A stretch of DNA of 48,523 nucleotides. Origin: Acidobacteriota bacterium (GTDB taxonomy: Bacteria > Acidobacteriota > Thermoanaerobaculia > Gp7-AA8). The DNA lies in the NCBI GenBank assembly GCA_003223645.1, contig QHVT01000032.1:1-48523 (forward strand), read 5' to 3'. The notes beneath the pieces were generated by a model. It was not told the DNA's origin, made no database searches, and saw nothing but the letters and a program-made list of their open reading frames with translations. Made by a program: the position numbers and the translations under genes. This document shows positions 9,813 to 48,303 of the stretch, in pieces (the stretch's first letter is position 1; every line of letters begins with the position of its first letter).

Positions 9813-9910
9813 ACGAAGGCAGAAGGCAGAAGGCAGAAGGCAGAAATGAGAAACATCGATGGCGATTTTACTGCCCTATTCTCACTTCTGCCTTCTGCCT
9901 TCTGCCTTTC
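9813..9910. repeat. Palindrome built of GAAGGCA heptamers
   Basis: Left arm about 9815-9851 is a run of AGAAGGC units ending in ATGAGA. Right arm 9880-9910 is its reverse complement (TCTCACTTCTGCC then CTTCTGC units). The repeat fills the gap between RlmI (stop 9909-9911) and PilB (start 9812) almost exactly. It could form a long hairpin and end transcription from the RlmI gene (inference). Confidence 0.85.
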
Positions 9911-11108
9911 ATCTCACTTCCAGAAGAAACCCCTTCAGGTACTCCCCTTCCGGACAATACATGCTCACCGGATGATCGGGAGCGGCGGTCAGGCGGCGCA
10001 CGAATGAGACGCGACGGCCGGCGTCGAGCGCGGCGGCGAAGATCACTTTCTGAAAGAGATCGAGTGACATGTGTCCGCTGCACGAGAACGTCATCAGCAT
10101 TCCGCCGGGCTCGACGAGCTTCATCGCGTGCAGGTTGATGTCCTTGTATCCGCGCGCGGCGCGATCGACGTCGCTGCGCGACTTCGCGAACGCGGGCGGA
10201 TCGCAGACGATGAACTCGAATCGCTCGCGCTTCTGGCGAACATACTGGAAGGCGTCGGCGACGACGAACTCCGCTTGGCGTTCATTCAGCGCGTGATTCT
10301 CGCGCGCGAGCTCGATCGCACGAGCGGAGACATCGACGTTCGTCACCGCGGCTGCGCCGCCCGCCGCCGCGTACACGCCGAACGCGCCGGTGTACGAGAA
10401 CAAATTGAGGACGCGCTTTCCGCCGGCGAGCGTGCGCGCGAGGCGGCGGTTCTCGCGCTGATCGAGAAAGAAGCCGGTCTTCTGCCCTTCGCCCGGATCG
10501 ATGCGGAAGTGCAGCCCCGACTCGACGATCGTCGTCGCTTCGACCGGCTCGTTTTCCGTCGGCAGCTGCTCGAGCGCGCGCACCGGCAAATCGTTCTTGA
10601 ACCAGATGGTGTGGGTGCCGCTGCCCTCAGCGGCACCGCGACCGCTGAGGACAGCGGTCGCCACATGGAGTGCGTGGACAATCAGTGGCTTGAGTTGTTC
10701 AACACCGCGGTTGGCGATCTCCACGACCAGCAAACCGTTGTAGCGATCGACGACGAGTCCGCTCAGCTCATCGCCTTCGGCGTTGATGATGCGCGCGGCG
10801 TTGGTCGTGTCGTCGAAGATGAATCGTCGTCGCGCGATCGCCTCGGCGATGCGCGTCGCGATCAATTCGCGTGTGATGTCTTCTTCGCCGAACATGAGCG
10901 CGCGCAAACGGATCTGCGAGCTGCGCGAGTAGAAGCCGCACGCGAGTCGCTTGCCGTCGCTGTCGACGAGATCGCCGATCGCCGCGTCTTCCGGGCCGCG
11001 CTCGCTGTGAATCGCGCCCGCGAAAATCCACGGATGTCGATTCGCAATGACGCGTTCCTTCCCTCGTTTCAGCGTCAGCGTGCGGCGGCGTTCAAATGCA
11101 TCGTTCAT
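9909..11108 (-). CDS. rlmI: RlmI-like 23S rRNA cytosine-C5 methyltransferase
   Basis: 399 residues. A PUA domain opens the protein (KRGKERVIANRHPWIFAGAI). The EEHEA-like middle has DELSGLVVDRYNGLLVVE. The methyltransferase domain has GQKTGFFLDQRENRR, SAM motif LNLFSYTGAFGVYAA, and catalytic FIVCDPPAFAKS and FSCSGHMS. These match RlmI (m5C1962 of 23S rRNA). Residues about 148-166 come from a twin-hairpin DNA repeat and are unusual for the family. ATG 11108 was preferred to TTG 11126 because the latter lies on top of the divergent start codon. Only 17 bases separate the two divergent genes. Confidence 0.88.
   Translation of the reverse strand: MNDAFERRRTLTLKRGKERVIANRHPWIFAGAIHSERGPEDAAIGDLVDSDGKRLACGFYSRSSQIRLRALMFGEEDITRELIATRIAEAIARRRFIFDDTTNAARIINAEGDELSGLVVDRYNGLLVVEIANRGVEQLKPLIVHALHVATAVLSGRGAAEGSGTHTIWFKNDLPVRALEQLPTENEPVEATTIVESGLHFRIDPGEGQKTGFFLDQRENRRLARTLAGGKRVLNLFSYTGAFGVYAAAGGAAAVTNVDVSARAIELARENHALNERQAEFVVADAFQYVRQKRERFEFIVCDPPAFAKSRSDVDRAARGYKDINLHAMKLVEPGGMLMTFSCSGHMSLDLFQKVIFAAALDAGRRVSFVRRLTAAPDHPVSMYCPEGEYLKGFLLEVR
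10614..10661. repeat. Twin-hairpin repeat inside rlmI
   Basis: Two perfect 10-bp stems with 4-base loops stand in tandem: 10614-10637 (GGTGCCGCTG / CAGCGGCACC) and 10638-10661 (GCGACCGCTG / CAGCGGTCGC). The second stem is also found intergenically at 44653-44676. Within rlmI the repeat is read in frame and adds about 16 residues (TAVLSGRGAAEGSG region). Confidence 0.85.
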
Positions 11109-12327: not shown

Positions 12328-13122
12328 ATGTTCCACCGCATCCTCATCCCCACCGATTTCTCGACCGCCTCGGAATGGGTGTTCGATGACGCCGTGCGCA
12401 TCGCGGCGACGAGCGGCGGCGAAGTGATCATTCTTCACGTGCGCATGACGTGGACCGATCATCCGGACGAGCTGCGCTTTCCCGCCGATCCGTCTCTGTA
12501 CGAATACGTGGAGCAGCAGGAGCTCGAGCGATTGCGCGAGCGCGTGCGCGAGAGCTCATTGGTGAGGACGCGCCTCATCGTGCGGCAGGCGCCCGATCCC
12601 GGCGACGAGATTTGCCGGACGGCCACACGCGAGAACGCCGACCTGATCGTGATCGCGACACACGCGCGACATCACGTCGCACATCTCATCGTCGGCTCGA
12701 CAACCGTCTCCGTCCTGACCGATCCGCCGACGCCCGTGCTCGCGATCCGTTACGGCATTCGCAAACGCGCGCAATTGAATCGCATCGTCGTGCCGGTGCA
12801 TCTCGAACAGGACTCGCGCGCCGCGCTCGATCTCGCTGCAGGCGTCGGACGCGAGATTCATCTCCTCACGATTTGCGACGACGGCTCCCGTCCACGGGCG
12901 GAGAAACTGCATCGCGAGCTCGCGGCCGGCATCAAGAACGCGAAGTCGCACATCGTGCGGGGCTCCGACGCGCAGAAGGAGATCGTGAAGTACACGACGA
13001 AGTCGGACGCAGACGCGATCTTTCTCAACGCGCACAACGAGCCGAGCGAAGGGAAGCTCGACATTATTCGAAACGCGCCTGTGCCGGTGATGATCGTCCC
13101 GGCAGTGTCATCCCGAGCGTAG
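12328..13122 (+). CDS. Universal stress protein with two UspA domains
   Basis: 264 residues. The first domain has the family opening FHRILIPTDFSTASEWVFDDAVRIA and ends with LIVIATHARHHVAHLIVGSTTVSVLTDPPTPVLAI, close to the G..G......S....v..PVLvv nucleotide-binding pattern. The second domain starts at RIVVPVHLEQDSRAALDLA and ends NAPVPVMIVP; it is shorter and lacks the Gly-rich loop. Tandem UspA proteins are stress-linked nucleotide-binding proteins (family knowledge). The last residues SSRA and the TAG stop come from the palindromic repeat at 13107-13207. Confidence 0.85.
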   Translation: MFHRILIPTDFSTASEWVFDDAVRIAATSGGEVIILHVRMTWTDHPDELRFPADPSLYEYVEQQELERLRERVRESSLVRTRLIVRQAPDPGDEICRTATRENADLIVIATHARHHVAHLIVGSTTVSVLTDPPTPVLAIRYGIRKRAQLNRIVVPVHLEQDSRAALDLAAGVGREIHLLTICDDGSRPRAEKLHRELAAGIKNAKSHIVRGSDAQKEIVKYTTKSDADAIFLNAHNEPSEGKLDIIRNAPVPVMIVPAVSSRA

Positions 13123-13207
13123 CGAGGGACCTGGGCAAGTGGGGCTCGACGCATGTGCCTCGTGCCGCCACCCGAGCCCCAGATCCCTCGCTCACGCTCG
13201 GGATGAC
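13107..13207. repeat. Palindromic repeat, copy 2, covering two stop codons
   Basis: Left arm starts GTCATCCCGAGCG and right arm ends CGCTCGGGATGAC; the arms pair over about 28 bp. The centre matches copy 1 (342-440) in reverse orientation. The left arm holds the TAG of the UspA gene (13120-13122) and the right arm the TGA of the leftward kinase gene (13192-13194). Both proteins therefore end in SSRA. Confidence 0.9.
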
Positions 13208-16026
13208 ATGCGTTCCATCGCGGCAATAAAGTCGCCGACGCTCGCGAAGCGCTCGTCCGCTTTCTTCGACAACGCGCGCTGCAACGCATTCGCGACGTTG
13301 TGCGGCACGTTCGGCACGCGCTCGGTGATCGGGACCATCGGCAGGTCGGTGTGTCCGCGCACGACCGACGCGAGATCGGTCGCCGTTCCGAGCGGATGTT
13401 CTCCCGCGATCAACTCGTACGCGATCAGAGCGAGGCTGTACTGATCCGCCCGCGCGTCCGCCGGATGTCCGCTCAACACCTCGGGTGCCATGTACATCAG
13501 TGTCCCAACGACGCCCGCGCTGTGTCCCGACTGCACGAACGTCGCTTCGTCCTCGCCGATCGGGTTCGACATCTTCGCGAGTCCGAAGTCGAGCACGCGC
13601 GGCGCGGGCAGGCTGCCGTGATCGCGCACGATCATGATGTTCTCCGGCTTGAGATCGCGATGCACGATTCCCGCGCCGTGCGCGGCGTGCACCGCATCGG
13701 CGACGGGACGCAGGATCGTCATCGCCGCATCCAACGGCTGCGGACCGGACGTGATCACTTTGCGCAACGTCTCGCCGTCGAGAAACTCCATGACGAGATA
13801 CGCGTGACCGGACGGAAGCACGCCGAAGTCGTGGATCGTGACGATCGCGGGATGACGCAATCGCGCGACGATGCGCGCCTCGCGCTCGAAGCGATTGCGC
13901 ATCGACGAGCTGCCGACGAGATGCGACAGCAGCACTTTGATCGCGACGGGACGATTGAGCCGCTTCTGCGTCGCGAGGTACACCGAGCCCATGCCGCCGC
14001 GGCCGAGGAGACGCGTGACGACGTACTTGTCCTCGATCATCCGCGGCACACCGGACTCCGGCACGAGCGCTTCGTTGTCGATTTCGCACTGCGACGCATC
14101 GGGCGCGTAGCAGCGGCCGCACTTCGGACAGAGACGCAGCACGTCCGACGTGAACGCGTGCACCGGCGCAGACCAGACGAGCGATGGCGATTGCTTGAGG
14201 CGCGTGTAGTCGAGCGTCAGCGCGAGCTGCGCGCCGAGCATGCGCAGCAGCTCGCGATCTTCGCGGCTGTACGGCTCCTCGGATTTACGTTCGCCGAGGA
14301 CCATGAGGCCGACGAGACGCTTCTCGATCAACAGCGGCACGATGAGATACGCGTCCGATTGCGTGAGCCACTCACGCTCCGCTTCCGGCAGCCGTTGCAG
14401 CAGCGCGCGCGTGCCGCGATGAAAGACGTCGAGCGGATCATCGTCGGTGATCAGCAGGGACGCGAGCGTGCCGGTGGAGGACAGGCAATCCTGCCTGTGC
14501 TGGCGATCGCCATCGACAGGCAGGATTGCCTGTCCCCCACCGCGATAGAAGCCGCGATACAGTTCTCCCCCATCGGGATCGACCTGCCAAAGCGAGATGT
14601 GTTTCGGATGCAGCGCCTTGTCGATTTCGTCGAGTGCGGCGCGCGACAGCGCGAGCATGTCCGAGCCGCCGCGAATGATCGAGACGACGTGCAGCAAGAG
14701 GTGTCGCGCGTCGTATTGCTCGCGAAAGAAACGGCGATCGAGACGCTCGAGAAGATGCTTGCGATAGTGAATCATCGCGACGAGCGGAATGATCAACAGC
14801 AGATACAGCGCCGGCGTGCCGGTCAGCAGCATCGCCAGCGAATCCTGACGATGCGCGTAGAAAAAAATCGCGAGACCGATGACCGGCAGCGACATCAGCG
14901 CGAAGAGCGTCCCGCGCGCGAGTGCGTACTGCAGGCTGCGCCGCACGAGCACGCGAATGTTGTAGAGACGGTGCCGCACCACCGCGTACGCGTACAGCGC
15001 GGCGCCGAGCATCGTCATCGGCGTATTGAGAATGGTGACGACGTAGGCGAAGGCGTAGCCGAGATGGAACGTGCCGCCGAGGAAACCGAGGGCGAACGTG
15101 GTGGTGCCGGGGAGCAACGAGAGAAAGACGAGTTGCACGCGGCGGCGCGCGTTCGCGTCGCGCACGCGCGCCAGGCGCACGCCGAGTGTGATCAGCGCGG
15201 CGACGAGCAGGAACGTGCCGACGCTCGACGACGCGTCGCGGAACGGCAGCGCTGCGGGATGCACGTCGCCGCGCAGTCGCTGCATGTCATTCGCAAGCGT
15301 CTCGACGAAGATCGGCAGGCTGACGACGTACGGGACGAATTCCCAAACCGGACGCAGTCGTCCGACGCGATCACTCGGAAAAATCAACGCGAAATGCGCG
15401 ACCGCGGCGAAGAACGCCGCGCAGAACCACGCGTCGAGGACGAACATCGGCACGCGCAACACGGCAGGAGTCGCGTCGAGAATCGGTCCGAACCCTGCTG
15501 CTTGATAGATGAAGACGCTGCCGGCCCAATAGACGAGCGTCAGTGCTGAGACCCGCGCGTCTTTGTTGTCGGGCCGCAGCACGAGCAGCGCGATGCCAAG
15601 GCCCATCATCCAGATGTGCAGCGGAAAGTTGAGATAGCGCGAGATCGCCCACAGCGTGCGCACGCCGCCCGCGCGCAGCGAAGCGCGACGCAGCGATTCT
15701 TCCGAGGCGACGTGCAGTTGAACATCGTGCCGCACGCCTTCGTGTTCGAAGACGACCGGCACGCTGTCACCGGCGCTCTCGAAGAAGAGCGGGACCACAT
15801 CGATGGCGACCGGGTAGTTGTTGATCGAAAGAAGGCGATCGCCGGCGGCGATCCCCGCGCGCGCACCCGGTCCTTCGGGCGCGACATTGAGCACTTTGCC
15901 CGTCGACTTCGAGTAATCGAAGCCGGTCATCGGTCGCTCGACGAGCACGTAGAAATTGAGCAGTACGAAGATCGCGGCGATGACGACCTGAACCCAACAG
16001 AGCATCACCAGCGGTTTCGTCTTCAT
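13192..16026 (-). CDS. Membrane Ser/Thr protein kinase: PDZ, 7-8 TM, GAF, zinc ribbon, kinase
   Basis: 944 residues. One membrane segment at about 10-28 precedes a PDZ domain (APEGPGARAGIAAGDRLLSIN). Seven or eight hydrophobic segments follow between about 130 and 405. A GAF-like region at 430-610 has SDAYLIVPLLI and LVGLMVLGERKSEEPYS. A zinc ribbon CPKCGRCY ... C lies near 629-650. The Hanks-type kinase has P-loop LGRGGMGSVY near 675, AIKVL, HRDLKPEN near 788, DFGLAK near 812 and MAPE. It should phosphorylate proteins in response to membrane or ligand signals. Residues about 495-517 are encoded by a twin-hairpin repeat. It ends in SSRA within a palindrome and starts 38 bases from the divergent GNAT gene. 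Confidence 0.9.
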   Translation of the reverse strand: MKTKPLVMLCWVQVVIAAIFVLLNFYVLVERPMTGFDYSKSTGKVLNVAPEGPGARAGIAAGDRLLSINNYPVAIDVVPLFFESAGDSVPVVFEHEGVRHDVQLHVASEESLRRASLRAGGVRTLWAISRYLNFPLHIWMMGLGIALLVLRPDNKDARVSALTLVYWAGSVFIYQAAGFGPILDATPAVLRVPMFVLDAWFCAAFFAAVAHFALIFPSDRVGRLRPVWEFVPYVVSLPIFVETLANDMQRLRGDVHPAALPFRDASSSVGTFLLVAALITLGVRLARVRDANARRRVQLVFLSLLPGTTTFALGFLGGTFHLGYAFAYVVTILNTPMTMLGAALYAYAVVRHRLYNIRVLVRRSLQYALARGTLFALMSLPVIGLAIFFYAHRQDSLAMLLTGTPALYLLLIIPLVAMIHYRKHLLERLDRRFFREQYDARHLLLHVVSIIRGGSDMLALSRAALDEIDKALHPKHISLWQVDPDGGELYRGFYRGGGQAILPVDGDRQHRQDCLSSTGTLASLLITDDDPLDVFHRGTRALLQRLPEAEREWLTQSDAYLIVPLLIEKRLVGLMVLGERKSEEPYSREDRELLRMLGAQLALTLDYTRLKQSPSLVWSAPVHAFTSDVLRLCPKCGRCYAPDASQCEIDNEALVPESGVPRMIEDKYVVTRLLGRGGMGSVYLATQKRLNRPVAIKVLLSHLVGSSSMRNRFEREARIVARLRHPAIVTIHDFGVLPSGHAYLVMEFLDGETLRKVITSGPQPLDAAMTILRPVADAVHAAHGAGIVHRDLKPENIMIVRDHGSLPAPRVLDFGLAKMSNPIGEDEATFVQSGHSAGVVGTLMYMAPEVLSGHPADARADQYSLALIAYELIAGEHPLGTATDLASVVRGHTDLPMVPITERVPNVPHNVANALQRALSKKADERFASVGDFIAAMERMSSRA
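14476..14542. repeat. Twin-hairpin repeat inside the kinase gene
   Basis: Two hairpins with 7-bp stems and 4-base loops (ACAGGCA-ATCC-TGCCTGT and ACAGGCA-GGAT-TGCCTGT) form a larger inverted repeat bounded by GGTGGAGG and CCCCCACC. The left half matches 44677-44703 (GTGGAGGACAGGCAATCC). Read in frame it encodes GGGQAILPVDGDRQHRQD and a few more residues within the GAF-like region. Confidence 0.9.
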
Positions 16027-44628: not shown

Positions 44629-44652
44629 GTGGCGACCGGGTTTGTTTTTGTG

Positions 44653-44732
44653 GCGACCGCTGCCCTCAGCGGTCGCGTGGAGGACAGGCAATCCTGCCTG
44701 TCCCGAAGACAGACAAAATTGTCTGTTCTCCA
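44653..44732. repeat. Composite intergenic twin-hairpin repeats
   Basis: GCGACCGCTG-CCCT-CAGCGGTCGC (44653-44676) matches a stem in rlmI. It is followed by GTGGAGGACAGGCAATCC ... GTCTGTTCTCCAC (44677-44732), two hairpins ACAGGCA-ATCC-TGCCTGT and ACAGACA-AAAT-TGTCTGT, matching the repeat in the kinase gene. Confidence 0.9.
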
Positions 44733-44739
44733 CAAACGA

Positions 44740-48218: not shown

Positions 48219-48303
48219 GTCCTATAGGTCCTATTCGTCCTATAAGTCTTATTCGTCCTATTAGGACCTATAGGACGGATAGGACCTATAGGACTAATAG
48301 GAC
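48219..48303. repeat. CCTATAGG-type palindrome in the 5S-23S spacer
   Basis: Left arm has units TCCTATAGG, TCCTATTCG, TCCTATAAG; right arm from about 48258 has their reverse complements AATAGGAC, CTATAGGAC. The repeat forms a long imperfect hairpin of octamer-like units. Confidence 0.85.

Follow-up and report, generated by a model that had tools for sequence, protein, structure and literature searches.

A palindromic repeat that is read in frame within a protein gene raises the question of how it entered and what it did to the host sequence. The window analyzed here comprises 48,523 nucleotides of an acidobacterial genome and contains, on the reverse strand at 13192-16026, an open reading frame for a membrane Ser/Thr kinase of 944 amino acids with PDZ, GAF, and protein kinase domains. 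The first-pass annotation had noted a twin-hairpin repeat in this gene at 14476-14542. The repeat is real, as its arms, its fold, and its genomic copies attest, and only its position had to be adjusted, because the register of its family sits two bases further left (14474-14540). It is a 67-bp, head-to-head pair of 27-nt palindromic REP units, comprising a left unit with a GTGGAG head and a palindrome (14474-14500, forward strand), a spacer of 13 nt (14501-14513), and an inverted right unit (14514-14540, reverse strand). The inverted arms (outer limits 14472-14542) measure 27 nt each, lie at 14472-14498 and 14516-14542, and are 96% complementary. Predicted folding energies were −35.8 kcal/mol for the DNA strand (z = −9.3) and −66 kcal/mol for the mRNA strand (z = −10.1), and none of 200 shuffled sequences matched either value. 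A likeness of the left half to a repeat at 44677 had also been recorded, which holds (34 nt, 88%) and was understated, as 44677-44733 is a second complete dimer of the same family, located between genes and with a GACAGAC variant as its right unit. Directly before this dimer, at 44649-44677, we also observed a single hairpin with a TGTGG head.

The 27-nt unit has the form GTGGAGGACAGGC-6nt-GCCTGTCC, i.e., a GTGGAG head followed by a hairpin with a GACAGGC stem (GACAGGC/GCCTGTC). With up to three mismatches, its 21-nt core was found 84 times in forward and 86 times in reverse orientation (170 matches) in the genome of 6,379,710 bases, and the reversed 21-mer, applied as a control to the same 6.38 Mb, gave no match in either orientation. 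GTGGAG was the commonest hexamer directly 5′ of perfect hairpins in a sample of 448,523 bases (53 of 246 occurrences), in which heads of this kind also preceded several other stems. Sixty complete head-to-head dimers were studied, drawn from similarity hits (40 scored out of 131 first-look candidates), listed 21-mer core matches, and 400 kb taken regardless of hits, with a filter that retained complete dimers only. Their lengths ranged from 54 to 80 bp and their spacers from 0 to 26 nt; dimers with zero spacer measured exactly 54 nt.

These features can be compared with published repeat classes. GTAG-type REPs are characterized by an unpaired GT(A/G)G head and an association with RAYTs (Nunvar 2010, PMC2817692). 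The GTGGAG head contains GTGG and the family comprises many near-identical copies, but its head does not occupy the same place relative to the stem as in the strict GTAG families, so that the element fits the looser definition only. Inverted REP doublets, presumed to be mobilized by RAYTs, were defined as REPINs (Bertels and Rainey 2011, PMC3116915), and the dimer likewise consists of two inverted REPs with a spacer that could form one hairpin. In contrast to the REPINs of P. fluorescens, which are described there as extragenic and of set unit length, our dimers vary in their spacers and are frequently intragenic (24 of 60). Within genes, GTAG and CGTC REPs have been described by Di Nocera 2013 (PMC3733652), predominantly in Opitutus terrae and Rickettsia conorii. 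Intragenic GTAG repeats are most numerous in O. terrae, and dnaE of R. conorii carries a REP. Over half of those intragenic inserts consist of dimers or groups; these code for 20-30 residues, and their spacers are variable. The GTAG dimers described there resemble ours in being short palindromes with an unpaired head, arranged head-to-head with variable spacers within ORFs, whereas the GTGGAG head with a GACAGGC stem, the acidobacterial host, and the loss of host codons evident from orthologues set ours apart. The comparison with Rickettsia RPEs drawn earlier is apt in the sense of 'works like', since RPEs, too, are palindromes inserted in frame into many protein genes (PMC2229807) and the intragenic R. 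conorii repeats are treated alongside GTAG REPs in PMC3733652. That the family itself differs, as had been stated, is equally borne out: RPEs are 105-146 bp long (PMC2229807, PMC3733652), RPE-4 and RPE-6 being counted with the CGTC repeats, and they belong, by published description, to another sequence family than the shorter, GTGGAG-headed REP dimers. A limited search of the open-access literature returned no report of host-codon replacement by REPs. Intragenic REPs were known before; added here are the GTGGAG/GACAGGC family, how often it occurs within genes, and the pattern of apparent replacement described below.

A search for further coding copies, as suggested with the first annotation, revealed many. 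A strict rule based on codon scores classified 23 of the 60 complete dimers as intragenic, and L018 was added by hand, as it failed on the downstream score, although FtsK domains flank its dimer on either side; the remaining 36 were not counted as intragenic. Within the 400 kb taken regardless of hits, four of eight dimers were intragenic. Affected genes include dnaE, ftsK, an amidase gene, and genes of ABC transporters. Pfam analysis of 20 of the 24 host proteins identified, among others, AlkZ-like, Peptidase_M28, Amidase_3, DNA polymerase III alpha, FtsK, His_kinase, acyl-CoA dehydrogenase, Eco57I methylase, SpoU methylase, ABC transporter, CheB, DPP IV, and P450 domains, and a class I glutamine amidotransferase domain in the host protein of L217, which we read, from the sequences, as a probable HisH; L246 is likewise read as a probable HisC. 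The upstream unit is preferentially translated as GGQAILPV (16 of 24; VEDRQSCLS, 6; WRTGNPAC, 2; chi-square p-value = 0.0015), a bias that reflects selection or an insertion preference. For the downstream unit of the same 24 dimers, no significant frame bias was detected (12, 6, and 6; p-value = 0.22). Spacer lengths of the 23 strictly defined intragenic dimers were spread over the classes modulo 3 (8, 8, and 7), as expected if the length of the whole element does not set the frame. The consensus unit corresponds to nine codons and lacks stops in all six frames. We considered this as a sign of special design; however, 18% of shuffled 27-mers were equally open and 37 of the 60 dimers themselves had no stop in any of the six frames, so that it is weak evidence of selection.

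In the kinase, the dimer is translated without a stop into 23 residues (GGGQAILPVDGDRQHRQDCLSST, residues 496-518), which fall into the GAF domain assigned by Pfam (residues 456-605; 14212-14661, reverse strand). An AlphaFold2 model of residues 420-640 places the segment in a loop that connects a strand to a helix, the mean confidence being 51 over ten residues (model residues 81-90), compared to 82 and 79 on the two sides. Kinase relatives were collected by contig scans, the first of which yielded none and the second 22 loci, with L292, L293, and L294 containing the kinase sequences of G001, G010, and G011. The element is missing from these three orthologues and from a fourth (L295), all four of which have 13 or 14 residues in place of the 23, and it is also absent from the other relatives in an alignment of 17 sequences; the idea that all orthologues share these residues is thereby dismissed. 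The first-pass annotation had described an addition of about 22 residues to a GAF-like domain, of which the reading frame and the domain stand. As a clean insertion the proposal failed in the alignment, because the net gain is only 9-10 residues. This leaves a deficit of approximately 12 host codons, which shrinks to approximately 8 if the 13 nt of the spacer are counted as host DNA. As regards the kinase, the insert probably has a neutral or mildly disruptive effect and no function of its own.

The same deficit recurs at other loci. We compared lengths for 18 of the 24 intragenic loci and three loci from G015 (L004, L066, L087, L088, L093, and L230 were left out, as their orthologues were judged insufficient). 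In all 41 locus-by-orthologue rows from these 21 loci, which include rows for L012 and L015 against G011 (with its own element) and for L212 against G010 (with another insert), the net gain was smaller than the element. The shortfall amounted to at least two host codons at 20 of the 21 loci, the exception being L233 with 0.7 codon; orthologue loops themselves vary by several codons at some loci. Dimers with zero spacer behaved alike: L246 gained 10 codons for an 18-codon element relative to both G007 and G011, and L237 gained 8 codons relative to G007. Microhomology at the junctions was seen by eye at L084 and L217. In the kinase, 9-10 residues were gained for 23 encoded, and 20 of the 21 loci lack at least two codons. 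The dimer therefore seems to take the place of host sequence, and the alignments point to an event that removes or overwrites its target. The main alternative is a clean insertion of the whole dimer and a separate, later deletion of flanking codons under selection that restored the loop length. The nearly clean insertion at L233 would suit such a course, and half copies (e.g., L091, L094, and L213) demonstrate that erosion is possible, with only complete dimers having passed our filter. We nevertheless regard it as doubtful, as the units next to the missing codons are complete at those 20 loci, and the intragenic units show no sign of greater decay (1.88 vs. 1.81 mismatches per dimer; p-value = 0.91). 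Misassembly would be another cause, in that a short repeat could have joined unrelated pieces of a metagenome: the assembly consists of 51 contigs, the repeat is numerous, and misjoins at repeats are possible in draft assemblies. This is highly improbable, however, as locus after locus the flanks of the dimer form one protein in the orthologues, in order and in frame.

The spacer may have remained from the host. Two REP units could have entered both strands at staggered positions, leaving ancestral host DNA between them. The amidase L013 provides the clearest match, with QRGAPASA in the spacer and VVQRGAP in the linker of the G011 orthologue. Spacers pooled from ten loci fitted the linkers of their own orthologues more closely than did random host peptides (0 of 2000) or shuffled residues (p-value = 0.0005), in tests that left out the L012 and L015 rows against G011 (orthologues with an element of their own), and the spread of intragenic spacer lengths over all classes modulo 3 agrees with this origin. 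Removal of L013 weakened both results (p-values of 0.0015 and 0.037, respectively), and when spacers were swapped among loci, the own locus was best for only two of ten, i.e., the dimer in the window and L013. Furthermore, the spacers of L233 and L084 do not match the host, which contradicts the idea that spacers always stem from the host, and host codons were lost at zero-spacer dimers too. A common spacer also occurs in some dimers outside genes: L078, L079, L081, L209, and L221 form one group and L080 and L223 another, none counted as intragenic, and their spacers of approximately 24-26 nt are conserved, unlike those of intragenic dimers. Shared spacers are expected of dimers copied whole, and this suggests that these seven represent a subclass propagated in that way. 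The sequence comparisons thus provide mixed evidence for a host origin of the spacer, and paired insertion seems rather unlikely.

Regarding a potential mobilizing enzyme, a single PF01797 match was found in the genome, L026, whose protein contains PDHVHLIV. This only RAYT-like gene (positions 1423-1968 of L026) is flanked by GTGGAG dimers of sister families with the stems CGGCGCCC and CGGCGGCC, and an adjoining GTGGAG dimer, which belongs to another stem family, supplies the codons of its C-terminus; with this one match scanned, no RAYT adjoining the exact GTGGAG/GACAGGC family was found in the genome. Across four genomes, REPs with GTGGAG-like heads lay on both sides of six of 14 scanned Y1 transposase loci (L026; L279, L290, and L291 in G011; L281 and L283 in G015). 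L279, a fragment with a partial Y1 match, is flanked by GTGTAG-GACAGGCGCCCTCGCCTGTC, which shares the GACAGGC stem and has another loop. Acidobacteriota genomes were part of a published REP survey (PMC12306157), and the mode of REP spread has been described as an open question (PMC8266576). The distribution of the present family across genomes is patchy: 14 of 60 genomes had any match to the unit, and the control gave at most one match per strand throughout. The genome studied here (G000) has 182 unit matches, compared to one in its congener G001, in which no Y1_Tnp match was found; G015, from another genus, has 79, many of them identical to the consensus of this genome, compared to six in its congener G007. 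The linkers of DnaE (L015) and the M28 peptidase (L012) carry the element here and, in G011 (L100 and L101), an element with the loop type of that genome, and no element was found at either linker in G001. At L212, the loop of G010 (L251) holds an unrelated insert of approximately 40 residues (ILRSAQDDNGRR...). With the same linkers filled in two genomes and another insert in a third, the three sites look like tolerant loops that were hit repeatedly, judging from the sequences; an ancestral element at the DnaE and M28 linkers that was lost in G001 is the alternative.

Taken together, we interpret the kinase element as an intragenic REPIN of two inverted 27-nt GTAG-type units that entered after the split from the sampled relatives, with a probability of roughly 80%. 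This draws on direct observations of copies, dimer form, absence from orthologues, an open frame, a GAF loop of low model confidence, and a reduced number of host codons. Several points speak against it: no insertion between strains was seen, the nearest sampled relative being only 65-66% identical in the kinase protein; eight of the 14 transposase loci lack a flanking pair; GTGGAG is not strictly GTAG; the downstream unit has no frame bias; and L233 is nearly a clean insertion. As a mechanism for this REPIN, units would spread as single-stranded hairpins handled in trans by a RAYT (TnpA-REP, an HUH Y1 transposase), and the insertion event would remove or overwrite a short stretch of the target. 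Copies in genes could then survive because the unit spans nine codons, its consensus is free of stops in any frame, and the loops are tolerant. More speculatively, and with rather low probability, REP units of this clade might generally overwrite their targets rather than being inserted as parcels, some dimers might be two opposite-strand units bracketing a spacer of host DNA, and genes such as dnaE and ftsK could take up REPs as codon replacements, since the unit amounts to nine stop-free codons. Intragenic copies and their orthologues offer a protein-anchored view of the insertion site before and after the event, which suggests that host sequence is removed, and the contrasts between G000 and G001 and between G015 and G007 mark lineages whose closer strains could be informative on insertion. 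With approximately 40% of the studied complete dimers in genes, dnaE and ftsK included, the term 'extragenic' applies loosely, and the replacement pattern deserves a direct test.

Other repeats were observed in the window as well. A further family of twin hairpins, headed by TGTGG and with the stems GACCGCTG/CAGCGGTC and GTGCCGCTG, forms a pair at 10610-10665; the single hairpin at 44649-44677 also belongs to it. A repeat with GAGCGAGGGACCTGGG is present, as an inverted pair of 55 nt and as shorter copies, at 342-432 and, just downstream of the kinase gene, at 13121-13208. Lastly, inverted repeats of short reiterated units were found at 9815-9908 (AAGGCAG) and, near rRNA genes, at 48219-48294 (GTCCTATAGG-like).
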